From: Acetobacterium sp. KB-1
GTDB lineage: Bacteria; Bacillota; Clostridia; Eubacteriales; Eubacteriaceae
Direction of reading: 5' to 3'
Assembly (NCBI RefSeq): GCF_003260995.1
Contig: NZ_CP030040.1
Span: forward strand, 1,587,736-1,651,735
Length of the DNA stretch: 64,000 bases
The notes under the pieces are model-generated. The model did no database searches, was not told where the DNA came from, and was given only the letters and a program-made list of their open reading frames with translations. Both the position numbers and the translations under genes were made by a program. Positions 33,650 to 45,739 of the stretch are shown here, piece by piece. The number at the start of each line of letters is the position of its first letter. Position 1 is the stretch's first letter.

Positions 33650-34567
33650 TCATTTTTGCTTGCGCTTCTGCGCTTCTGCCATAATATTCTTAAGCGTCAG
33701 CAATAAAGGATTGCTCTTGGTATTACTGAGGGCATCCTTAGAGTAGGTCAGCCCGGTCATCGAGTTGGCTTCACAGATGTAATAAGTGTCGTTTTCACCA
33801 AAGAGAAAATCGATACTGCCAAAGTAGATATCCAGCACAGCGGCAGCTCGTTCTGCGATGTTAATCACCTCAGCCGGTGGGGTAATAAATTGCAGATCAC
33901 CGCCCTGAGAAAGGTTGGATTTAAAGTTGTCGCCATTGTCGCGGATATAGGCGGTTGAGAATTTTCCACCGCTTAGCATAATCCGCATATCCCGCCCTTT
34001 TGAGGCGGCGATACACTCCTGAATCAGGATGTGATCATCAAAATTCATGGCCGCATAAAGATCCAGAATGTTTTCCAGTTCTTTTTCGGTCTTAATCAGA
34101 ACCACGCCTTTGCCCTTGCTGCCGTGCATCACCTTAACCACACAGGGTAATCCCAGCTCACTGGCAATAAAGGACGGCTTTGTTTTCGGGGTCATCAGCA
34201 CCGTTTTAGGGAATAAAAAGCCCTGCTCAGCGGCGCCCAGTTTTTGAAAGGTTAACAGCTTGTCAGCGGTATTGTTCAGACTTTCAGAGCTATTGACACA
34301 AAGTACATTAAGGGATTCCAGCATTTTGACAACAGCCTTGCTATGATAGTTATTGCCGCCGAAAAAGGCTGACAGCGAAAAGTCCGGCACCTCTACCGCT
34401 TCGCCGCCGATGAAACAATGCAGACTGTCGCCCGGTTCGCACATCACCTGAACCTCACTGACATCCACGGTTCTGATATTGACCCCCATCTTTTCAATCA
34501 GCGCAATAATCGTCTGGATCGACGGTTCCGCCAGCGTTTCATGATTAACCAATAACCAACCTAGCAT
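33650..34567 (-). CDS. ATP-grasp ligase, RimK/LysX-like (second copy)
   Basis: A 305-residue ATP-grasp ligase, probably joining an amino acid or acid to a carboxylate. After an N-terminal PreATP-grasp domain (about 1-100) come DKLLTFQKL, the ATP lysine in VVKVMHGSKGKGVVLI, IQECIAASKGRDMRIML, NLSQGG and the metal motif YYICEANSMTGL. About 45-50% identical by eye to the neighbouring gene at 34561, with which it overlaps by 7 bases. The substrate-binding N-terminal halves differ most, suggesting different acceptors. Confidence 0.87.
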   Translation of the reverse strand: MLGWLLVNHETLAEPSIQTIIALIEKMGVNIRTVDVSEVQVMCEPGDSLHCFIGGEAVEVPDFSLSAFFGGNNYHSKAVVKMLESLNVLCVNSSESLNNTADKLLTFQKLGAAEQGFLFPKTVLMTPKTKPSFIASELGLPCVVKVMHGSKGKGVVLIKTEKELENILDLYAAMNFDDHILIQECIAASKGRDMRIMLSGGKFSTAYIRDNGDNFKSNLSQGGDLQFITPPAEVINIAERAAAVLDIYFGSIDFLFGENDTYYICEANSMTGLTYSKDALSNTKSNPLLLTLKNIMAEAQKRKQK

Positions 34568-35484
34568 GTTTTTTCACCTTCTCGCAAGCGTTTTTTCCAG
34601 AGCGGTTCCGGTCTGTTTTTTACCTGCTTCATTAAATCCGCAAACATCACTTTGATGTCAAAGGCCACTCCCGGCATGGCATTGGCTTCACATAAATAGA
34701 AGGTATCATTTTCGCCAAAGAGAAAATCGACGCTGCCCATATTGATTTTAAGCAGCTGGGCAACCCTTTCAGCGGCCTCAATCACCGCAGCCGGTGGAGT
34801 ATATTCGACGATATGACCGCCCTTGGCGAGATTGGAACGAAAGCTCTGTTCATTCTGACGGATAAATGATTTGACAAACTTACCGTTGGCCAAAATCATC
34901 CGTAGATCGCGACCGGAGGAGGCTTTGATACACTCCTGAATAATAATTTCATCGCCGATTTCGCTGGCGGTACTCATACTGATCAGGTTATCCAGTTCTT
35001 TTTCATTGTTAACCAGCACCACCCCTTTGCCCTTACTGCCATGCATGACCTTCATCACCACGGGATAATCAAACAGTTTACTGACAAAGGATGCTTCAGT
35101 ATATTCCGTAACCAGCAGGGTTTTAGGAAAACAAACCGCTTCAATGGACTCGGCCACCAACTGAAAGGTCAGCAGCTTATCATCGACATTTTTGATCGCA
35201 TCATACGAATTGATGCAGAGTACGCCCAATGATTCCAGCATTCGCAATGCTGCCGAGGTATGGTAGTTTTTTTCAGTAAAGAAGGCTGCCACCACATAAT
35301 CCGGTACCGCCATGATTTCGTCCCCGACATAAAGTTTTCCGTCAAAGTCATGGTCACAGACCACATGGATCTGTAGCGGATCAACCACCGTTAGGTCAAC
35401 ATGTAACTCTTCCACCACCTTCATAATTTTCACAATTGAAGGATCTTCCATTTTTCCGGGATTTCTTAATAACCAACCTTTCAT
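34561..35484 (-). CDS. ATP-grasp ligase, RimK/LysX-like (first copy)
   Basis: A 307-residue paralogue of the next gene. Matching motifs are DKLLTFQLV, VMKVMHGSKGKGVVLV, IQECIKASSGRDLRMIL, NLAKGG and FYLCEANAMPGV. The Glu and Asn metal ligands and the ATP lysines are intact, so it should be active. The first residues MKGWLLRNPGKMEDPSI parallel MLGWLLVNHETLAEPSI of the partner. AGGAGG precedes the start. It lies 150 bases after the exporter gene, with a repeat between. Confidence 0.87.
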   Translation of the reverse strand: MKGWLLRNPGKMEDPSIVKIMKVVEELHVDLTVVDPLQIHVVCDHDFDGKLYVGDEIMAVPDYVVAAFFTEKNYHTSAALRMLESLGVLCINSYDAIKNVDDKLLTFQLVAESIEAVCFPKTLLVTEYTEASFVSKLFDYPVVMKVMHGSKGKGVVLVNNEKELDNLISMSTASEIGDEIIIQECIKASSGRDLRMILANGKFVKSFIRQNEQSFRSNLAKGGHIVEYTPPAAVIEAAERVAQLLKINMGSVDFLFGENDTFYLCEANAMPGVAFDIKVMFADLMKQVKNRPEPLWKKRLREGEKTC

Positions 35485-35537
35485 TCTAACCTCCTAATTT
35501 TATCTATCTACGTTAAATTTAAGTCTCTTGCAAATTG

Positions 35538-35606
35538 AACTGGCAATTGTGCAGTGTGCGGGCAAAGGTCTGACCCCTTGATCATCACGGATCGCCCCTT
35601 GTTAAA
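35538..35606. repeat. 70-bp repeat, copy 2
   Basis: Same sequence family and orientation as 33546-33616, beginning AACTGGCAATTG with the core GACCCCTTGATCATCACGGA. The words CAATTG and GGTCTGACCCC also occur in the inverted-repeat element at 45808-45924. Confidence 0.85.
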
Positions 35607-35635
35607 TATGTAATTCCACTTATCTATCAGAAATT

Positions 35636-37408
35636 TTAATTATCTGATGCACTTAAATATAAATTGGCGTATAAACCACCCATCTTCATCAGTTCGGTAT
35701 GACTGCCGACCTCTTTAATATCGCCTTCTTTCATAAAAATAATCTTATCGGCGTTTTTGATCGTAAAGAGCCGATGGGCGATGATAAAGGTGGTTCGTCC
35801 CTTCATCATCGCTTCCATGGCCTGGGTGATCAAAATTTCTGTTCGGGTATCCACTGACGAGGTCGCCTCATCCAGAATTAATACCTTGGGATCAGCAATA
35901 ATCGTTCGGGCAATGGCCAGAAGCTGGCATTCCCCCTCGGATAGGGTGGTAAAATCACCGCCGATTCGGGTCTCATAGCCCAGCGGCAGTTTTCTAATAA
36001 ATTCGTCACACTGCGCTTTTTTTGCCGCCGCGATAACATCGTCCCGGGTTGCCCCGCTTTTGCCATAAGCAATATTTTCTTCAATGGTACCATCAAACAG
36101 CCAGGTATCCTGGAGCACCATGCCAAAAGCACTGCGCAGGTTCGGCCGAGTAAGAGCCTTAACATTGAGACCTTCTAACAAAATACTGCCCTGATTAATC
36201 TCATAAAAACGCATCAACAAATTAACCAGGGTGGTCTTACCAGCACCACTGGGGCCCACTACTGCGAGAATTTCGCCAGGCTCTGCTGTTAGCGAAACAT
36301 CATGAAAGAGAATCCGCTCGGGAACATAGCCAAACGCGACATTTTTAAATTCAATTTGACCTTTTGCAGTGGCTACATCAAGAACTTCGGTACTTCGATC
36401 TAGCTGTTCCTCTTCCCGATCCAGAAATTCAAAGATCCGCTCAGCAGCCGCTGCACCGGCCTGAATAAAGTTCAAATTATTAGAGATGAGAGCCGTGGGG
36501 CTGGCAATATTATTGGCATAGATCAGAAAAGCCTGAATTGTCCCAATGGTCATCGTTCCAGTAATAACAAAAATACCGCCTACCACACAGATACCAATGT
36601 AGGCCAGGTTATTGATTAGCTTCATTAAGGGTGAACTCAATCCCGAATAAAACCGGGAACTCAGGTAAGATTTAAAGAACCGCTGATTGATCGCATCAAA
36701 TTTTTCGGCTGACTTTGCTTCATGATTAAACGATTTGACAATTAAATGACCATCATAGACCTCTTCAATCAGCCCATTCAAAGCACCCAGTTCTTTTTGC
36801 TGTCGTCTGAAAAGGACCTGGGTTTTTTTGGTAATCAGTTTCATGACAAAATAAGAAAGTGGAATCGCCACAAAGAAGATCAGACTCAACGACACATTCA
36901 GCACCAGCATCATCACAATAATTCCGATAATACTGGTTGCCTGAACCAGTATCTGGGTCAGATTGCTTTGCAGTGCACTCGAAAGTGTCGTCGCATCATT
37001 GGTGACCCGGGAAAGCAAATCCCCCCGTTCACTCTGATCCAAGACATTGAGCGTCAGTTTATTCAGTTTTTCCTGAATATCGGCCCGTAATCGCTTAATC
37101 GCCAATTGCGACAAATAGGTAGTGCGCATGGTGGCATAATAGGCAAACCCGGCGCTTAAGATATAAAGCGCCGCCAGGATGATTAGCTGCTGCCCGATAT
37201 ATAAAAAATCAATATCGGTATTTTTAGCAATACTATCGGCGATGCTATCGGTGATATCCTTGGTCACCACCGGTGCGAAAATTGCAAAGATGGTACTGGC
37301 AATCAGTGCGACCGTCACAAAAAAGATAACATGTTTTTTATCCTTTAAATAATGACTCAGCCGCTTACCAATAGCACCAAAGCTGTATTTTCTTTTTTTG
37401 GTTTTCAC
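35636..37408 (-). CDS. ABC exporter half-transporter, catalytic partner
   Basis: A 590-residue half-transporter with six membrane helices (about 25-320) and an ATPase domain. Walker A is VVGPSGAGKTTLV, signature TLSEGECQLLAIAR, and Walker B ends in LILDEATSSVD with the catalytic Glu intact. The start is GTG at 37408, overlapping the upstream stop as GTGA, with GGAGG 7 bases before. Together with the gene at 37405-39144 it forms a heterodimeric multidrug-type exporter. Confidence 0.93.
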   Translation of the reverse strand: MKTKKRKYSFGAIGKRLSHYLKDKKHVIFFVTVALIASTIFAIFAPVVTKDITDSIADSIAKNTDIDFLYIGQQLIILAALYILSAGFAYYATMRTTYLSQLAIKRLRADIQEKLNKLTLNVLDQSERGDLLSRVTNDATTLSSALQSNLTQILVQATSIIGIIVMMLVLNVSLSLIFFVAIPLSYFVMKLITKKTQVLFRRQQKELGALNGLIEEVYDGHLIVKSFNHEAKSAEKFDAINQRFFKSYLSSRFYSGLSSPLMKLINNLAYIGICVVGGIFVITGTMTIGTIQAFLIYANNIASPTALISNNLNFIQAGAAAAERIFEFLDREEEQLDRSTEVLDVATAKGQIEFKNVAFGYVPERILFHDVSLTAEPGEILAVVGPSGAGKTTLVNLLMRFYEINQGSILLEGLNVKALTRPNLRSAFGMVLQDTWLFDGTIEENIAYGKSGATRDDVIAAAKKAQCDEFIRKLPLGYETRIGGDFTTLSEGECQLLAIARTIIADPKVLILDEATSSVDTRTEILITQAMEAMMKGRTTFIIAHRLFTIKNADKIIFMKEGDIKEVGSHTELMKMGGLYANLYLSASDN

Positions 37409-39144
37409 AGTGATTCCTCCTTCCCATCGCTATAGGATTGGGATTTCAGAATTTCCTGATAAACCCGGCAATCGCGGATCAGGTCCTCATGTTTACCCTG
37501 ACCGACAATGGCGCCATTATCCAGCACCAGAATCTGATCGGCGTGTTTAATGGTGCTGATCCGTTGGGCGACAATTAACACCGTTTTATCACCAAATTTT
37601 TCGCGTATGGCTTTGCGAACCAAAGAATCAGTTTTAAAATCCAACGCCGAAAAGCAATCATCAAAGATCGTGATCGGGGCTTTCTTAACTGCCGCTCGGG
37701 CGATACTAAGGCGCTGTCGCTGCCCTCCGGAGAGATCCTTGCCGCCCTGAGAAATCGTGCTGGCCACTTGGCCTTCCCGTTCGTTGATAAAGTCAAGCGC
37801 CTGAGCAATCGATAAGGCTTCGATAACCTCTGCCTCGGTGGCCTGATCCTTGCCGACCCGGATGTTTTCCAACACGGTTCCACTAAAAAGCACCGATTCC
37901 TGGGGCGCATAGGCAATAATGCTTCTCAGATCATGCTGGGTTAAGTCCCTAATATCGACCCCATCAATTACAATGGCACCCGAACTAACCTCATAAAGCC
38001 GCATAATCAAATTGACCAGCGTGGTTTTACCCGAACCGGTAGCGCCGACGATTGCGGTTATTTTTCCTGGTTCAGCAACAAAATCGAGTCGCTCCAGAAC
38101 ATTTATTTCAGCACCGCTATAGCCAAAAGAAACCGCTCTAAATTCAATGCGTCCCGCAATGTTCTCAAGAATCACCGGATTTTCTTTATCCTGAATGGAA
38201 AAGTCGCAATCCAATACCTCTTTAACCCGTGACGCCGAAACAGCCGCCTGGGGATAAGCCATAAGCAAAGCCGAAACCAGACCCAGAGCAGACATAAACA
38301 TTAAAACGTATTGAATAAATACCATCAAACCACCCAATGTAACAATTTGCTGCTGAACCTCCTGGGCTCCTAGCCATAAAATGATCACCATCGTCAGGTT
38401 CATCATCAGTTGCATCAGCGGGGCAAAGAAAGCGACTGCATAGTTTGCTTTAACAGCCGCTTGCATACCTTCCTGGTTGGCCTGACCAAATTTCTCGGTT
38501 TCATAATCCTGACGGTTAAACGCTCGGATCGTCCGGACTCCGGTGAGTTTTTCTTTCATCAAAAGATTTAGCCGATCGACTTTCTGCTGCATCAGCTTAA
38601 ATAAGGGCATACTTCGGGCCGTAGTTAGCCCAATAATAATCGTCGTGATCAGAAACGATCCCAATAGCAACAGTGTCAGAGTAATATTTTCGCGAAAAGC
38701 CATCACCAGAGCGCCAACACCGGTAATTGGAACCAGTAGTAATGACCGTAACCCATTGATGACAACGATTTGCATCTGGGTCGCATCGGTGGTGGAGCGG
38801 GTCAGCAGAGTAGCTGCGCCAAATTGATTGAAGTCGGTCTGGGAAAAATCCTTGACCTTGTCAAACACATCCGCCCGAATTCGACTGGTAAAGGACGCGG
38901 TGACATAGGCTGAATAATAACTTGATGCCACCATACAGACCGCCGCCACCAATGAAACCGCCAGCATCATTGCGCCGCTTTTTAGAATATAAGGCGTGTC
39001 CCCCTGAGCCACCCCATTTTCAATAATATCCCCCATCATTGTAGGCAGATAAAGTTGCGCCGCCGCCTGGCTGAGCACAAACACAAAGACCAGAATCATC
39101 TGGAGCCGGTAATCTTTTAAATACCGTAACAGTAAACTGACCAT
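37405..39144 (-). CDS. ABC exporter half-transporter, degenerate partner
   Basis: A 579-residue half-transporter, six membrane helices then an ATPase domain. Walker A is IVGATGSGKTTLV and the signature DLSGGQRQRLSIAR. Walker B reads ITIFDDCFSALD, where the catalytic Glu is replaced by Asp, as in the degenerate site of heterodimeric exporters (for example TM287/288). It is coupled to its partner gene by a 4-base overlap and follows the GH3 genes by 3 bases, so it probably exports their product. Confidence 0.93.
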   Translation of the reverse strand: MVSLLLRYLKDYRLQMILVFVFVLSQAAAQLYLPTMMGDIIENGVAQGDTPYILKSGAMMLAVSLVAAVCMVASSYYSAYVTASFTSRIRADVFDKVKDFSQTDFNQFGAATLLTRSTTDATQMQIVVINGLRSLLLVPITGVGALVMAFRENITLTLLLLGSFLITTIIIGLTTARSMPLFKLMQQKVDRLNLLMKEKLTGVRTIRAFNRQDYETEKFGQANQEGMQAAVKANYAVAFFAPLMQLMMNLTMVIILWLGAQEVQQQIVTLGGLMVFIQYVLMFMSALGLVSALLMAYPQAAVSASRVKEVLDCDFSIQDKENPVILENIAGRIEFRAVSFGYSGAEINVLERLDFVAEPGKITAIVGATGSGKTTLVNLIMRLYEVSSGAIVIDGVDIRDLTQHDLRSIIAYAPQESVLFSGTVLENIRVGKDQATEAEVIEALSIAQALDFINEREGQVASTISQGGKDLSGGQRQRLSIARAAVKKAPITIFDDCFSALDFKTDSLVRKAIREKFGDKTVLIVAQRISTIKHADQILVLDNGAIVGQGKHEDLIRDCRVYQEILKSQSYSDGKEESL

Positions 39145-39147
39145 CGG

Positions 39148-40824
39148 CTACTCCTTATCCACTAAGGCAAAGAAAAAGTTCTCTTTGACCAACGTGTCAA
39201 TCACCCGTACCGGCTTTAACTGATTCCCGGAAATCCCCCGCATAATCATCAGATCACGATAAAGAGCATAGGTTTCTTCCTGAACAAAAGAAATTTCGGA
39301 AGGACTCAAGATTCCACTTTTGACCTTGGAGCCAATCGAAGGGTTGGCCGTCCCTAACTTCGCTTCCATGATTTGACGATATTGTTCATATTGTCCCTTC
39401 GCCAGCGGTTTTTCTAATTCAATAAAGATAACATAGCGACCCGGCGATACCGCCACATCGGCATAGACCGAATAATCCACCAGCTCGCAGTCGGTGGCCT
39501 TGGCAAATTCCTTAACTGCCCAGGAAACGCATTCTTCGGTCGTCTTTTCGCCAGCTATGCTGACCATCTGATTGAGTCGATAAACAAATTTGATCTTGGG
39601 GCATTTTTTATACCAGCCCACCACGCGTACCACGTCTTTGATCCGATAGCGGTAAAAACCAGAGGTGTTGGTTAACACGATCTCATAATCCTTACCGGTT
39701 TCCAGTTGTTCCATAGTCAGCGTTTGTTCCCCTTCTTCCTGATCCACCGGGATAAATTCATAAAAGGCCGAGTCGGGAATCAGGACAAATTCCTGGGCTT
39801 CCATTTCGTTACAAATCGCCATAATTGACTCTGATGCGGCATAAACGCTGAAATAAATGGGAATATCCCCCAAATAGTGACGCATTTTATCCGTATAGAC
39901 TGAAAAACTTCCACTACCAATCGCGTGGACAAAAGCCAGTTCGGGCCAGATTCTGGGAATAATGGGGGTATCAAAACCTTTTTTAAATTCTTCTCGCAGT
40001 TCCGCCGCCCGTTTGGGGTTCGGCTTTATTTGGGTCAATAACTGAACTTTGATCTCATCGGGAATTTTTATATCCGGATCGATGGTGCCTTTTTCGATGT
40101 CATCGACGATCATTTCCCAATTTGTTTCCATATATTTCATCAAGTCAGAAATACCAGTCATAAAGGCAGAAACAATATAGGACAGATTTCGCTCCATCAG
40201 TGCAAAACGAAGGTGCGCATACTTGGTGTCCATTATTTCAGTAGGAAAAACAATTTCTTTAGGTGAGGTGAACATCAAAAACAAAAGGTTTTTGATACTG
40301 TAAACACCCCGCCCTGAAATGGACCCGGCAAACAAACCATTGGACAGCGTTTCAAATTTGACTTCCATCAGGTTTAGTCCGCGACCGCGTTTCCACTTTT
40401 TCCCCAATGCCCGGGCAATGATGGCAAAGCTGAACTGGGTGGCATATTCCCGGTAAAGATCGACCGTTTGTTCCGAAACCGGGATCTTTTTGGGATTATC
40501 AACACTACCGGAAGTCAGGGCATAATGGATGATATTATCCTTAGTCAACAGATCCTTTTCTCCGGCTATCATTCGTTCGATATAAGGGGCGTAATCATCA
40601 TAAATAGAAAAAGGCACCGTGTTCTGATAGTCTTCAATGGTCTTAATCTGGTCAAAGTGATAGCGCCTTCCATACTCGGTGTCGGCATTTTTAGCGATCA
40701 TATCAAGCATCAATTGTTTATTGATTTCCGGAGCATTTTCGGTTAAACGATCAAAATTCTCAATTTTTTTGTAACCTTTTTTAATATTAAGGGAATAAAT
40801 CAGTTTGGGTATCATCTTTATCAT
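39148..40824 (-). CDS. GH3-family acyl-adenylating amido synthetase (second copy)
   Basis: About 558 residues, a full-length GH3 fold. In plants such enzymes adenylate jasmonic or indoleacetic acid and couple it to an amino acid; bacterial members are scarcely characterised. ATP motifs are HYALTSGSVDNPKKIPVS (about residue 90), FSVYAASESIMAIC and the GH3 hallmark GFYRYRIKDVVRVVGWY. The C-terminal lid domain is present. The ATG at 40824 overlaps the upstream stop as ATGA, with GGAAGG upstream; the longer start is unnecessary. Acid and amine substrates are unknown. Confidence 0.88.
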   Translation of the reverse strand: MIKMIPKLIYSLNIKKGYKKIENFDRLTENAPEINKQLMLDMIAKNADTEYGRRYHFDQIKTIEDYQNTVPFSIYDDYAPYIERMIAGEKDLLTKDNIIHYALTSGSVDNPKKIPVSEQTVDLYREYATQFSFAIIARALGKKWKRGRGLNLMEVKFETLSNGLFAGSISGRGVYSIKNLLFLMFTSPKEIVFPTEIMDTKYAHLRFALMERNLSYIVSAFMTGISDLMKYMETNWEMIVDDIEKGTIDPDIKIPDEIKVQLLTQIKPNPKRAAELREEFKKGFDTPIIPRIWPELAFVHAIGSGSFSVYTDKMRHYLGDIPIYFSVYAASESIMAICNEMEAQEFVLIPDSAFYEFIPVDQEEGEQTLTMEQLETGKDYEIVLTNTSGFYRYRIKDVVRVVGWYKKCPKIKFVYRLNQMVSIAGEKTTEECVSWAVKEFAKATDCELVDYSVYADVAVSPGRYVIFIELEKPLAKGQYEQYRQIMEAKLGTANPSIGSKVKSGILSPSEISFVQEETYALYRDLMIMRGISGNQLKPVRVIDTLVKENFFFALVDKE

Positions 40825-42542
40825 TTTTCGCCTTCCTTTGCCCAACCCGCAATGCTGTTACGATCAGGGTATTCCGTTACAATGGTTTTTAATTTTGTTT
40901 GGTTTACATTCTTCCCGGGCATGATTGATCGGGAAAATAACGAATCACGGTAACCATCGCTCACCATTATTACTTCTACTCCCCGTAAGTGGCATGATTC
41001 TCTTAATCGCTGATAGCTGGGCTTTAGCTTAAACAGGTGTTTCTCCAAGTTCAATCTAAAAACCTCACTATCAAACCGCTCTGAATAGGGTTCCAGAATA
41101 AAGATCAGCTTTTTATTCTCCCGATCCAATAAGATCTGATAAAAACGGATCTCCTGATTTAAATAATTAGAAATTGTCTCAATCGCCCCATCAATTTCAA
41201 AGACCCTTAAACTCAGGCGATCCAACTCCAGCTTTTCCGATTCTTTGCACACAAAAACAAGCCTGGGAATCTGATTATTCATCTCCGTCACTCGGACGAT
41301 ATCTTTCATATTATAGCGGTACAAGCCCGAATAGGAGGTAATGATCAGTTCGTAATAGCCACCTTTTTTTAATTCGTGGGCCAAAAGGGTTTGACTCGTT
41401 ACTTCTCCGACTGGTAAAAACTCAAAAAAATAACCAAAAAGAGCAAGTAATCCGGCTGGATCCTGGGCTTTATCTGGTATATTAAACTTTCCTTCACTGG
41501 CGCCGTAGCCCCATTCCAGGAATTTGACCGACTGAGGGAGGTGCTTTTTGATATCGGTCACAATTTTTGCTGCACTGGCTGACATCCAGCAGGACACAAC
41601 CGCAAACTCGGGCCAGATCATTGCCACATCCAGGGTCTTTTTGTTTTTAAGAATTGTTTCCAGTTCTGCTGCCCGCTCCGGATTTGGCAATAATTCCGAA
41701 ACCAATTTTTCCCTCAGTACCGCATCAATGGAAATCTTTGACGATATCTGACCCTCTCTGATATCTTCTAGCAAATCGTCGGCTTGTGCATTCATTTTTT
41801 TTAGTAAAACATTAAAGTGGGCAATATTGCTACAAACAACACCAACCAGATTTTTTTCTGCCAACGCATAGCGAATCGTTAAGTAATCGGTTGTCTCATT
41901 ACTCAGTCCCTTCGCGATCATCATTGCCGGTGGCAGCACCATTTTTTTTAACATCTCGACTGGCATATCCTTGGCCGCCTGGCCAGAAGCGGAGCCAATC
42001 GGAATGCCTCCGTCGGTTTTGCCATACTCCGAGGGGTTAACAATAGCCAATACCTTTTTTCCCGGCGCCATTACTTCCGGGGCCATCATTAATAAAAGGA
42101 TGGCCCGAATCTGAGAAACCAAACCCTTGACACATTCCCCATTTTTACTTTCAGGAATCAGTTTAGGTACACCAGTGGAGCCGCTAGTAGCAACAAAACT
42201 GGCTGTTGGACCGTCAAAAAAAATGTCTCCCTGACCTGCTTTTAACGGTGTCAGCTCTTCTTCAATCTGAGAATAATCCGATATTGGCACCTTGTTTCTA
42301 AAGTCGTCGACGGTTTTAATGTCTGAAAAACCCATTTTTCTGCCAAACTCACTATTCTGAGCAGATTTTAAAATATCCTGAAGCACACGTATTTGTGTGG
42401 CCTCAGGAATACTTTGGATAAAATAAAAACTTTTAATTAATTTTTCATTGGGCATTTCCTTTAAACGTTCTGGAATACTCTTATCATCGTTGCCGCCAAA
42501 AATGGCCCTAAACTGCTCTTCCGCCATACTATTTCCCGCCAT
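40821..42542 (-). CDS. GH3-family acyl-adenylating amido synthetase (first copy)
   Basis: About 573 residues, a diverged paralogue of the next gene. Motifs are FVATSGSTGVPKLIPES, LEWGYGASEGKFN and GLYRYNMKDIVRVTEM. The acid-binding pocket between these motifs differs strongly from the partner, so different acids are likely. The ATG at 42542 is preferred over a GTG two codons earlier because AAGGG then lies 7 bases away. It follows the STAS gene by about 10 bases. Confidence 0.88.
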   Translation of the reverse strand: MAGNSMAEEQFRAIFGGNDDKSIPERLKEMPNEKLIKSFYFIQSIPEATQIRVLQDILKSAQNSEFGRKMGFSDIKTVDDFRNKVPISDYSQIEEELTPLKAGQGDIFFDGPTASFVATSGSTGVPKLIPESKNGECVKGLVSQIRAILLLMMAPEVMAPGKKVLAIVNPSEYGKTDGGIPIGSASGQAAKDMPVEMLKKMVLPPAMMIAKGLSNETTDYLTIRYALAEKNLVGVVCSNIAHFNVLLKKMNAQADDLLEDIREGQISSKISIDAVLREKLVSELLPNPERAAELETILKNKKTLDVAMIWPEFAVVSCWMSASAAKIVTDIKKHLPQSVKFLEWGYGASEGKFNIPDKAQDPAGLLALFGYFFEFLPVGEVTSQTLLAHELKKGGYYELIITSYSGLYRYNMKDIVRVTEMNNQIPRLVFVCKESEKLELDRLSLRVFEIDGAIETISNYLNQEIRFYQILLDRENKKLIFILEPYSERFDSEVFRLNLEKHLFKLKPSYQRLRESCHLRGVEVIMVSDGYRDSLFSRSIMPGKNVNQTKLKTIVTEYPDRNSIAGWAKEGEK

Positions 42543-42552
42543 TTTCACACCC

Positions 42553-42855
42553 TTATTCGATGGTCAAAATATCTGAAAACCCGGTCATATCAAATACTTC
42601 CTGGATTTCCGGCTTGACGTTTTTAATCACCAGACTACCATCAAGTGCCTTGGATTTTTTTTGAATCAGCAGTAACACTCTTAATCCGGCACTGCTGACA
42701 AAATCCAGCTTATCAAAATTCAGAATCATCTTAAATCCTTGTTTAGTATAATACGGCTCCATTTCTTTTTGAAACTCAGGGGAGGTATTGGTATCCATTC
42801 GGCCTTCTAGTTCAACTAGAAAAATATCACTTTCTTGCTTTACTTCAATTTTCAT
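42553..42855 (-). CDS. STAS-domain protein (anti-sigma factor antagonist type)
   Basis: A 100-residue single STAS domain like SpoIIAA/RsbV. The phosphorylatable serine loop is LDFVSSAGLRVLLL (Ser about residue 57). Such proteins are switched by serine kinases and phosphatases; none is encoded here. As the first gene of the GH3/ABC string, it could control the enzymes by direct binding or serve an unrelated regulon. AAAGG lies upstream of the ATG. Confidence 0.9.
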   Translation of the reverse strand: MKIEVKQESDIFLVELEGRMDTNTSPEFQKEMEPYYTKQGFKMILNFDKLDFVSSAGLRVLLLIQKKSKALDGSLVIKNVKPEIQEVFDMTGFSDILTIE

Positions 42856-43020: not shown

Positions 43021-43042
43021 CAAATTTTTAATTTTAATTGAT

Positions 43043-43071
43043 CATACCACAATAATTTGCCATGCGCAATT
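43043..43071 (-). promoter_or_regulatory. Extended -10 promoter of the GH3 operon
   Basis: Minus strand TTGCGC (43066-43071), 17 bases, TATGAT (43043-43048) with TGG directly before the -10. The -35 is weak; the extended -10 compensates. Confidence 0.45.
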
Positions 43072-43297
43072 ACAAAACCAGTCGAAATACGAAAGTTGTA
43101 TTTATATCCAAATCAATTGCATACTTTATCGTTATTCACGTGTTTAATCCTTTAAAAAATGCATCCATAAAGGCGATCTTTTCAAAAATAATCTCAGCCA
43201 ATAAAGCCCTGTATTTGGGAATCTGCTAAGCATCGTTGAAAGATGTTCTGTTTTTATTTACAAATTCAATTTTCTTTTACATCTTCGTTACAAGCTA

Positions 43298-43399: not shown

Positions 43400-45739
43400 A
43401 TGAAAAAGAACTCGATTATTTCCATTATTATCATCCTACTAATTCTTCTGACCGCCATTTTGTTTGTTCGTAGCTGCAACCAAGAAGGAAGCGAAATGAA
43501 AAACTATACCGTGGCGGGTACCTACAACGAAACAGCAACCTATCAAAACGGAGAGATTAAGGTTTCTGATGTCAACATCGAAAATGCCACCTTTACCGGT
43601 AATCTAACCGTTACTGATGCGGTTGCCGATGGCGAAATTCGGCTGACCAACGCAGCCGTACAAGGCGAATTACTGGTAAAAGGAGGTGACACCATTTACC
43701 TGGATGGTGGCGCCTACCAGAACATCATTCTTGAGAAACCCGGGGTAAAAATTGTTTTACTTGGCGAAGCAACCGTTGAAACGCTGACCGCCAGAGCAGC
43801 GGCCAACATCGTTGTTGACAATCAAAGTAAGGTAAAGACCCTAAACGTTGAGAAAGCCGCTGCCCGGACATCCATCACCACCCAGGAAAATGGTACCATT
43901 GAAAACATTCAGGCCCGGGGCGCCAGCGACATTATTCTTAACACACCAGCCAAACTAATTGGATTCGGCACCAATGCCGGTGGATCAACCCTTGTAGCCA
44001 ATGCGGTGGTTGATAAAATCGTGGCTGAATCGAAGGTTATTCTCACCCTTAATGCCAATGTGGGAACCGTGTTGTTAACCACTACTGGTGAAGGAACCAG
44101 CATTACACTTGGCAACAATGCCGTAATTGCCTCTCTGGCCACAGAAACCCGGGTTGAGATAACCGGTGAAGGCAGTGTTACCAGTGCCACCACCAACGAT
44201 GTACTGTACATTACCGGGACCGTTACCCCGGAGGTCGTTTATATTACCACCAAGCCGGTTGTCAGTGATACCAATGGTTCATTAGCTGTATCAACCAATA
44301 CCAACCGAGTCGCCGATAGTAGTTCCTCTGGCGGGTCCAGCGGCACCTGGTATTCCGGTTCAAGCGATTCCGGGTCGGTCATTGATACGATTCACGATAC
44401 CCCGTTTATCCCTCCAACCCCACCAAATCCGCCAAGCCCAACCCCACCAACCCCACCGAGCCCACCTGTAAATATTTCGGTGGAAGCAATCCAGGTAACA
44501 CCGGTTGAAGCAGATGTGATTATGGGTAATACTTTAAAACTGAACACCGTTATTTTTCCCAAAAATGCGACCAATCAAACCATCATTTGGGAAACGTCTA
44601 ATAACGCGGTTGCCACCGTCACCAATGGGGTGGTCACACCAGTTTCTAATGGCGAAACCACCATCACTGCCCGAACTCAGGATGGGAATAAAACTGATAC
44701 CTGTAAAATTACAGTCAAAACCAATGTCACCGCTGTGACTATGATTAATACCATCAACACCGTCAATAACAATATTGCACAAACCATTGCCTATGACAGC
44801 AGTTACTCCCTGCCGGTTGTGGTCATCGCCCAGGGTTATGGCAGTGAACTTTTTCCCTGTTCAGTAACCTGGTCCCCCAATACCGTGGACACGAAAAAAA
44901 TTGGTGAAACAATCTATACCGGCACTTTGGTAATGCCTGCTGGCTATGTCAACCTGAATAACACCCAGGCCTTAATCACCCTCACGGTCCTGGCCCAACC
45001 GGTAATTACCGCCAGCTCGGAACTATCCTCCCAACGTGTTTATTTAAATGAAGATCCTGCTCCTGTTTTTGTGGAAGCTGATGTTACTGATGATAAGACC
45101 TTAACCTACCAGTGGTCTTATCGCATCGGTGATGTCGAAACCCCACTACCAGAGGTTACAGGTCCAATTTATGATCCCCCGGCATCCGCAACCCCGGGTA
45201 CTGTCTATTATAACTGTGTGATCTCTTCTGAAAATGCTGATCCGGTCACCGTCTTAGCGGGTACTGTCGTGACCAGTATCGATCCCGCTGTCCTACCAGT
45301 AACACCTGATCCCGCCGATCCTGAAACCGGTGAAACAGAACCGGTTATCGTAACAACATTAGCTGAAATACCAACGATCACGGAACAACCAACCAGTATT
45401 TCACAACTGAGTGACATCGCAGTGGCAACCAGTTTGGCTCAGGCTACCCGCACTGCTCAGGCTGCCCTCGGCGCACCTAAGTCTGAGATAGCAACAGCTT
45501 CTTTTAGAGTAGCTGCCACTGTCAATGATGGCGGTGTCCTCACCTACCAGTGGTTTGAAAGCTCCGTGGCCGTCAATGCCGATGGCAAAGCAGTTGATGG
45601 TGCTACTGATAAGACCTTTGCGGCCGATACCGCCAGTCCGGCCGGAACCACCTACTACTATGTCGAAATCACTAATACCAAAGCCGGTTGTCTGCCGGTA
45701 ACCGCCGTCAGTCTCCCGGTTTCACTCACCGTGATATAG
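43400..45739 (+). CDS. Surface protein with beta-helix, Pro-rich stalk and Ig-like domains
   Basis: A 779-residue exported protein. Residues 1-28 form a signal anchor (IISIIIILLILLTAILF) followed by RSCNQ, which is not a clean lipobox. Residues about 35-300 are short repeated strands rich in Ala, Val, Thr and Asn (NATFTGNLTVTDAVADGEI), suggesting a beta-helix. A Ser/Gly stretch and a Pro-Pro-x stalk (about 335-355) follow. Next comes a Big2-type Ig-like domain (NTLKLNTVIFPKNATNQTIIW) and further Ig-like modules with YQWSYR and YQWFES. No sortase or S-layer motif is seen at the end. Likely a cell-surface adhesin or structural protein. Confidence 0.82.
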   Translation: MKKNSIISIIIILLILLTAILFVRSCNQEGSEMKNYTVAGTYNETATYQNGEIKVSDVNIENATFTGNLTVTDAVADGEIRLTNAAVQGELLVKGGDTIYLDGGAYQNIILEKPGVKIVLLGEATVETLTARAAANIVVDNQSKVKTLNVEKAAARTSITTQENGTIENIQARGASDIILNTPAKLIGFGTNAGGSTLVANAVVDKIVAESKVILTLNANVGTVLLTTTGEGTSITLGNNAVIASLATETRVEITGEGSVTSATTNDVLYITGTVTPEVVYITTKPVVSDTNGSLAVSTNTNRVADSSSSGGSSGTWYSGSSDSGSVIDTIHDTPFIPPTPPNPPSPTPPTPPSPPVNISVEAIQVTPVEADVIMGNTLKLNTVIFPKNATNQTIIWETSNNAVATVTNGVVTPVSNGETTITARTQDGNKTDTCKITVKTNVTAVTMINTINTVNNNIAQTIAYDSSYSLPVVVIAQGYGSELFPCSVTWSPNTVDTKKIGETIYTGTLVMPAGYVNLNNTQALITLTVLAQPVITASSELSSQRVYLNEDPAPVFVEADVTDDKTLTYQWSYRIGDVETPLPEVTGPIYDPPASATPGTVYYNCVISSENADPVTVLAGTVVTSIDPAVLPVTPDPADPETGETEPVIVTTLAEIPTITEQPTSISQLSDIAVATSLAQATRTAQAALGAPKSEIATASFRVAATVNDGGVLTYQWFESSVAVNADGKAVDGATDKTFAADTASPAGTTYYYVEITNTKAGCLPVTAVSLPVSLTVI

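Follow-up and report, generated by a model that had tools for sequence, protein, structure and literature searches.

Within a 64,000-nucleotide stretch of the Acetobacterium sp. KB-1 genome (hereafter the window; the host genome is 3.99 Mb on one contig), seven open reading frames (ORFs) lie on the minus strand between positions 33650 and 42855. In order, they encode a STAS-domain protein (STAS), two GH3-type amide synthetases (GH3a and GH3b), two halves of an ATP-binding cassette (ABC) exporter (ABC1 and ABC2) and two RimK-like ATP-grasp ligases (GraspA and GraspB), as listed in Table 1. We consider it reasonably probable that this conserved operon makes and exports a small amide-linked metabolite without the involvement of nonribosomal peptide synthetase (NRPS) modules. 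A more specific proposal, which we offer only tentatively, is that the genes specify a compact assembly line in which two AMP-forming GH3 enzymes would start an acyl-peptide, two ADP-forming ATP-grasp enzymes would finish it and a heterodimeric exporter would secrete it, with the ATP-grasp part being exchangeable with an NRPS module in related clusters.

Paralogous pairs and their active-site motifs

GH3 enzymes form an acyl-AMP and then transfer the acyl group onto an amine. GH3a and GH3b both carry the N-terminal, middle and C-terminal domains of the family, with all three Pfam models exceeding the 23.6-bit cut-off. GH3b reaches an E-value of 2e-87 against Pfam GH3 and also matches JAR1 of Arabidopsis (3.7e-62, 214 bits), while the plant relatives with solved structures include benzoate-Glu and auxin-amino-acid synthetases. 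Motifs I to III read TSGSTGVPK, YGASE and GLYRYNMKD in GH3a, where motif III has YRYN at the place of the expected YRYR, and TSGSVDNPK, YAASE and GFYRYRIKD in GH3b, and they are preserved with minor substitutions in these two proteins and 15 relatives. Among the positions that are invariant across 29 aligned GH3 proteins (GH3a numbering) are G123, K129, E352, Y410-R411-Y412, D416 and K552, the last being the C-terminal lysine, whose counterpart in plant GH3-1 is also a lysine. Given that GH3a retains its motifs and this lysine, we ruled out that it is a degenerate enzyme.

RimK-like enzymes form an acyl-phosphate and then attach an amino acid. The corresponding Pfam domain (RimK) is evident in GraspA (7.1e-26) and GraspB (5e-24). 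For the RimK-family alpha-L-glutamate ligase model TIGR00768, GraspB scores 148.4 bits, which is above the cut-off of 143.4 bits, and GraspA falls just under it at 141.1 bits. Residues D253, E266 and N268 (GraspA numbering), which we take to be the Mg-binding residues expected in ATP-grasp enzymes, are invariant across 19 ATP-grasp sequences, and most positions of the F[RK]SN...GG motif of RimK are likewise invariant. Thus, the assertion in an initial annotation of this DNA that catalytic motifs are intact in both GH3 and both ATP-grasp proteins is borne out by motifs I to III and the C-terminal lysine in one pair, and by the acidic residues and the RimK motif in the other.

Both ABC1 and ABC2 combine ABC_membrane and ABC_tran domains (Pfam). 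A motif scan revealed that ABC1 has FDD in its Walker B motif and glutamine in its H-loop (AQR), whereas ABC2 has LDE and AHR at these sites and carries an altered signature, LSEGE in place of LSGGQ. Such one-sided degeneration, with an altered Walker B motif and H-loop in one half and an altered signature in the other, is usual in heterodimeric exporters. Solved heterodimeric exporters, for example TM287/288 (3qf4), are among the best matches of ABC1, and the pair therefore appears to be of the heterodimeric exporter type, as had been predicted.

Conservation within Acetobacterium and recurrence elsewhere

Both GH3 genes are present in 17 of the 19 Acetobacterium genomes searched (this genome included). 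The order GH3a-GH3b-ABC1-ABC2-GraspA-GraspB is kept in all 15 other genomes in which the region lies on one contig, and the STAS gene is kept in 14 of these, being absent from genome G012; a sixteenth genome has the cluster genes split over two short contigs. Minor irregularities include a partial match to ABC2 at locus L083 and one in-frame stop in the GH3b gene of A. bakii. The initial annotation had allowed that the neighbourhood would be one of chance if related genomes carried these genes scattered and unlinked; instead, linkage is kept across Acetobacterium.

Synteny within the genus is nevertheless weak evidence by itself, because genes upstream of the cluster are conserved too: BigP, which encodes a Big_2-domain protein, adjoins it at all 15 single-contig loci, and a pyruvate carboxylase (PYC) gene lies upstream at 14 of them. 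On the downstream side, a phosphoesterase gene follows GraspB at only six of the 15 loci, and therefore GraspB is likely to mark the end of the cluster. The gap between ABC2 and GraspA varies widely in length among relatives.

Ratios of nonsynonymous to synonymous substitution rates (dN/dS) were computed against six relatives. In comparisons with KR46 and A. dehalogenans, the values are 0.026-0.063 for GraspA, GraspB, ABC1, ABC2, GH3b and STAS and 0.130-0.137 for GH3a, while pyruvate carboxylase has 0.020-0.022. These low ratios count in favour of the proposed operon. In the same two comparisons, GH3a evolves at about double the rate of the other operon genes (0.13 versus at most 0.063), which may reflect a shifting choice of substrate. 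Against the other four relatives, the ratios do not exceed 0.105 where dS could be computed (many dS values are saturated or infinite), with the exception of STAS versus A. bakii, where 0.224 was obtained over 100 codons.

The more informative observations come from a genus of distant clostridia (g32, of family f21), in which GH3 genes occur in eight of 12 genomes and in none of the 26 other f21 genomes. At locus L093, the order is GH3b, GH3a, an NRPS gene (A-T-C, 988 amino acids), ABC1 and ABC2, such that an NRPS module is found where the window has the ATP-grasp pair; a 3.6-kb contig (L148) holds the first three genes of this layout, two of them cut. A second layout, found at L094 and L101, consists of ABC1, ABC2, a 446-amino-acid ATP-grasp protein, a RimK-like ATP-grasp protein of 290 amino acids and two successive GH3 proteins, and L103 matches it until its contig ends after the first GH3 gene. 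Loci L149 and L150 have a RimK-like gene and a single GH3 gene followed by a large surface-protein gene, with the ABC side cut off, and L150 additionally carries the gene for the 446-amino-acid ATP-grasp protein. L104 is a broken copy with ABC pieces, a GH3 gene containing an in-frame stop, and no recognised ATP-grasp gene. The remaining GH3 genes of this genus lie outside such sets, either beside an SLH protein (L102), beside MATE and NRPS pieces (L147) or at a contig end (L154). In addition, the L094 set has an NRPS gene of C-A-T-R organization 3.7 kb away, and a similar gene is partly present beside L101. Because the combination of GH3 genes, exporter pair and peptide-ligase genes recurs in this genus in two layouts, we judged chance adjacency to be unlikely.

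In a tree of 55 GH3 sequences, Acetobacterium GH3a groups with the second GH3 protein of L093 and L148 (support 95/83); the larger clade enclosing them (100/100) includes a tandem pair from locus L167 as well. When the exporter proteins of L093 are compared with the KB-1 genome, the best match of its ABC2 is the cluster ABC2 (583 bits versus 443 for the next), and that of its ABC1 is the cluster ABC1 (439 versus 358 bits). A whole-genome search with the RimK-like protein of L094 returned the two cluster ATP-grasp proteins and nothing else at E <= 0.001. Judging from the GH3a grouping and the exporter matches, L093 and the window share an orthologous-looking core.

No GH3 gene was found in 21 genomes of the eight other genera of the Acetobacterium family. 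Matches occur in two of 48 genomes of the order outside Acetobacterium, in 27 of 391 genomes of the class and in 35 of 398 of the phylum, with many of the phylum matches being weak; in a control set of 14 genomes, Bacteroides ihuae is the sole one with a match. Searches of plasmid records yielded 10 matches for GH3b, with the surroundings of three being examined, and 43 for GraspA, each with less than 60% identity.

Several GH3 loci encountered in these searches have surroundings of their own. The genome that contributes the A. bakii contig (G001) has an extra, distant GH3 gene on another contig (L070:9280-10968); the gene after it encodes a ChW-repeat protein that matches peptidase M30. In g32, GH3 genes adjoin genes for very large SLH-anchored surface proteins (L104:11372-18889, L150:579-9065 and L102:4943-9175), of which two have FctA domains. 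These proteins recall the Big_2 protein beside the Acetobacterium cluster, a resemblance that may be coincidental. A plasmid of Citrobacter portucalensis (L108:7794-15743) carries a distant GH3 gene that heads a single run containing four radical SAM genes and one for an N-acetyltransferase, and a GH3 gene on a Bacteroides plasmid is surrounded by housekeeping genes. Tandem GH3 pairs occur in family f133 (L187-L191 and L167), with neither an exporter pair nor RimK-like genes as neighbours, and adjoin a LysR regulator where this was tested (L187 and L189). The L167 pair, which is related to GH3a in the tree, adjoins four similar genes of about 700 codons, one of which was tested and is type I phosphodiesterase-like.

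Locus layout and regulation

All seven ORFs are present on one strand where the initial annotation had placed them, and its description of junctions with overlaps or gaps of a few bases holds for most of them. STAS and GH3a are separated by 4 bp. GH3a and GH3b overlap by 25 bp when the listed TTG start of GH3b at 40845 is used, and an alternative in-frame ATG at 40824 would create an ATGA overlap with the GH3a stop codon. A 3-bp gap separates GH3b from ABC1, ABC1 and ABC2 overlap by 4 bp, and GraspA and GraspB overlap by 7 bp. The exception is the junction of ABC2 and GraspA, where the gap is 151 bp. No terminator-like site on the minus strand was listed within this gap by a scan for consensus promoters and terminators. 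We infer co-transcription of all seven genes, although the 151-bp gap upstream of GraspA leaves space for a promoter of its own.

Table 1. Features of the locus, with positions in the window
Feature	Positions	Strand	Basis or remark
STAS-domain protein, anti-sigma-factor-antagonist type, 100 aa	42553..42855	-	Pfam STAS, TIGR00377
GH3a, GH3-type AMP-forming acyl-amino-acid amide synthetase, 575 aa	40821..42548	-	Pfam GH3 N/M/C, motifs
GH3b, second GH3-type amide synthetase, 565 aa from TTG	39148..40845	-	Pfam GH3, motifs
ABC1, exporter half, 579 aa	37405..39144	-	Pfam, motif scan
ABC2, exporter half, 590 aa	35636..37408	-	Pfam, motif scan
GraspA, RimK-like ATP-grasp amino-acid ligase, 307 aa	34561..35484	-	Pfam RimK, TIGR00768 score, acidic residues
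GraspB, RimK-like ATP-grasp amino-acid ligase, 305 aa	33650..34567	-	Pfam RimK, TIGR00768 score
BigP, Big_2-domain protein, hydrophobic N-terminus, divergent neighbour	43400..45739	+	Pfam Big_2
Putative sigma-70 promoter with extended -10 TGGTATGAT	43030..43075	-	~190 bp upstream of STAS

The putative promoter upstream of STAS was not listed by the consensus scan and its -35 region is poor, while the extended -10 block TGGTATGAT is conserved in seven of 10 aligned upstream sequences. Extended -10 boxes are reported for A. woodii promoters in one study (PMC8407422), the main text of which mentions neither GH3, ATP-grasp, auxin nor RimK. Across the window, the scan counts are little above chance, with 27 promoter-like sites versus 20.3 expected and 13 terminator-like sites versus 9.8 expected. 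An Rfam search of the window at the gathering threshold gave only one tRNA, and thus no leader RNA from which the amino acid involved might be deduced. BigP, despite adjoining the cluster at all single-contig Acetobacterium loci, is probably not a member of the pathway.

The STAS protein exceeds the cut-off of the ant_ant_sig model TIGR00377 (80.8 versus 53.45 bits) and scores below that of the SpoIIAA equivalog (57.8 versus 114.75 bits), and its best matches among solved structures are SpoIIAA-type antagonists. It accounts for one of the two PF01740 matches in the whole genome. Elsewhere, a row of genes in genome G198 (L107:8711-14044) encodes a STAS protein, a GH3 protein, a MATE exporter and a SpoIIE-type phosphatase, located directly after phage-tail-like genes (baseplate J and tail P2 I), and this row may indicate how STAS and GH3 proteins are connected. 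The evidence on the STAS protein, L107 included, fits a partner-switch regulator and falls short of proof.

Proposed pathway, alternatives and known systems

The four ATP-dependent amide ligases come from two unrelated families and, together with an exporter pair, fit a product of the acyl-(amino acid)n type. In the pathway we propose, one GH3 enzyme would adenylate a carboxylic acid, either fatty or aromatic, and couple it to an amino acid. The second would either activate the resulting acyl-amino acid and add a second amine, or make a parallel conjugate. GraspA and GraspB would then extend the free carboxylate by at least one amino acid (glutamate being the default of the family) via acyl-phosphates, after which the ABC1/ABC2 heterodimer would export the product. 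The STAS protein would most likely regulate the operon through partner switching. We infer the order of reactions, the substrates, the export of the product and the role of the STAS protein. That an NRPS replaces the ATP-grasp pair at L093 suggests that peptide-bond formation is the task common to both arrangements. The ‘small acyl-peptide or amino-acid conjugate’ proposed by the initial annotation seems the most likely description of the product, and its reading of the genes as a biosynthesis and export pathway is supported by the linkage in Acetobacterium and g32.

Several observations weigh against this pathway. The GH3 pair is missing from two of the 19 Acetobacterium genomes, where searches gave only a 26-bit GH3 match in one case (98% complete) and no match in the other (81% complete). 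The gap between ABC2 and GraspA could house a promoter, and RimK-like enzymes may have proteins as their substrates. In the GH3 tree, the grouping of GH3b with the cluster GH3 proteins of g32 has support of 88/71, which is under the mark for strong support. Furthermore, the cluster ABC2 is only the third-best match of the L094 ABC2 protein in the KB-1 genome (422 bits), behind two other exporters with 490 and 427 bits, and we therefore regard the L094 set as analogous rather than orthologous, with a different exporter subtype. The presence of the same kinds of parts with another exporter strengthens the functional link and not the case for common descent. Finally, among 41 control GH3 loci beyond Acetobacterium and g32 (33, comprising 30 from genomes and three from plasmids of other phyla, plus eight more), none has a RimK-like neighbour (phmmer, 1e-6) and only two, L095 and L096, have an exporter pair, and thus such a cluster is not to be expected from a GH3 gene alone. 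Small misses are possible, since a number of these loci are short or run into contig ends and even the GH3 gene escaped the simple ORF caller in L109 and L194, of which L109 was checked by annotation. The co-occurrence of GH3, RimK-like and exporter genes that the initial annotation had suggested seeking was seen in Acetobacterium and g32 and at none of these control loci.

Among the alternatives, we regard as rather unlikely a route to amino-lipids, in which the GH3 enzymes would make N-acyl amino-acid membrane lipids, the ATP-grasp enzymes would elaborate the head group and an MsbA-like pair would flip the lipid to the outer leaflet. OlsH (NF052613) is the sole NCBIfam model matched by both GH3 proteins at E <= 0.001, and MsbA is the top NCBIfam model for both ABC halves. 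However, the OlsH scores (65.3 bits for GH3a and 111.4 bits for GH3b) are far under the cut-off of 620 bits, the MsbA scores are likewise under theirs, and GH3b also matches plant GH3 proteins such as JAR1 well. Moreover, Pfam revealed no OlsI-like (alpha/beta hydrolase) or other acyltransferase domain in the seven genes and three scanned neighbours. For lack of an adequate OlsH score and an OlsI partner, an ornithine-lipid operon was rejected. In keeping with the broader amino-lipid route, the authors of the OlsH study propose N-acyl amino acids as products of other bacterial GH3 proteins (PMC12493201).

It is also conceivable, although we think it quite unlikely, that several functions merely share the operon: the ATP-grasp enzymes would glutamylate a protein or cofactor in the manner of RimK, CofF or MptN, the exporter would be a general drug pump and the GH3 enzymes would serve another pathway. 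Some of the RimK-family models that were matched do represent enzymes with a ribosomal protein or cofactors as their targets, the 151-bp gap sets the ATP-grasp pair apart, and the conservation of BigP and PYC weakens the argument from synteny. What speaks for a joint function is the recurrence in g32, in two other layouts, of GH3 genes with exporter and peptide-ligase genes, and the break in conservation at the downstream border after GraspB. We find it very unlikely that the operon serves in detoxification by attaching amino acids to unwanted aromatic or fatty acids and pumping out the conjugates, akin to auxin inactivation by plant GH3 enzymes. Acetobacterium demethylates lignin-derived methoxybenzoates, which counts in favour of this idea, as do the benzoate-Glu and auxin-amino-acid synthetases among the solved plant relatives. 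Yet four ligases exceed the needs of a tag, an NRPS module occupies the same place in g32, and the only possible regulator in the operon, STAS, is not of an acid-sensing type.

Other explanations were discarded more readily. Pfam identified no NRPS adenylation, carrier or condensation domain in the seven genes, whereas these are present in the g32 variants, and an ordinary NRPS cluster was therefore rejected. A ribosomally synthesized and post-translationally modified peptide (RiPP) pathway was set aside because the MvdC model (microviridin type) yields only 24.9 and 28.3 bits for the ATP-grasp proteins against a cut-off of 425; in the three gaps that were scanned, the ORFs 20-55 codons long included none that looked remarkable by eye. 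Phage defence was dismissed because PADLOC assigned no family to any of the seven proteins submitted (both ATP-grasp proteins, both GH3 proteins, STAS, BigP and the phosphoesterase; the ABC halves were left out).

Acetobacterium serves as a model for acetogenesis and gas fermentation, and a secreted metabolite common to most of the genus would, if real, represent new physiology that is testable in A. woodii. Gene deletions have already been made in this species, according to one report (PMC10472528). GH3 genes linked to ATP-grasp genes or an NRPS module and to an exporter pair provide a signature by which anaerobes can be searched for peptide-like natural products. If the assembly-line proposal is true, peptide natural products would have GH3 enzymes as free-standing initiation modules, which searches based on NRPS or RiPP signatures would overlook.

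Among characterized systems, plant GH3 proteins (JAR1, GH3.12/PBS3 and VvGH3-1) share with GH3a and GH3b the three-domain family, the nucleotide motifs and the C-terminal lysine, but they are single hormone-modifying enzymes and do not belong to operons with ligases and an exporter. RimK, MptN and CofF, and more distantly LysX, share the ATP-grasp domain, the acidic residues and the F[RK]SN...GG motif with GraspA and GraspB. Unlike in those systems, two paralogues stand beside GH3 genes in the window, and no gene for ribosomal S6, LysW or F420 was found among the ten proteins scanned. A plasmid of Streptomyces sp. SGAir0924 (L109:1-15491) has a GH3 gene in a polyketide synthase cluster together with P450, aminotransferase, F420 oxidoreductase and thrS genes, presumably resembling the cluster for borrelidin (BorL); it differs from the window in having a single GH3 gene and neither an ATP-grasp gene nor an ABC pair in the annotated stretch.

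Leupeptin is a small peptide that is likewise built by discrete enzymes. A transporter gene adjoins leupABCD, as described in one study (PMC8283571), and the main texts of this and a second report (PMC11480411) do not mention ‘gh3’; with no GH3 mention found in the open-licence literature, a leupeptin-type pathway was not retained. An antiSMASH survey of Acetobacterium provides cluster counts, and the two clusters described in its available portion differ from the present one (PMC6925170). The open-licence literature yielded no described pathway with this gene set, in agreement with the initial annotation, and the latter’s remark that bacterial GH3 proteins are scarcely studied needs a small update. 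OlsH, a GH3 protein of the planctomycete Singulisphaera acidiphila, is reported to make N-acyl-ornithine from a free acid, ATP and an amino acid (PMC12493201). The likeness between that pathway and the KB-1 operon lies in the bacterial GH3 family, within which GH3a and GH3b score far below the OlsH model. The OlsH/OlsI system comprises one GH3 protein and an O-acyltransferase, and the main text on it contains neither ‘ATP-grasp’ nor ‘ABC transporter’ (PMC12493201). The linkage of GH3 genes to ligase or NRPS genes and to exporters described here suggests that bacterial GH3 proteins have a role beyond amino-lipid synthesis.

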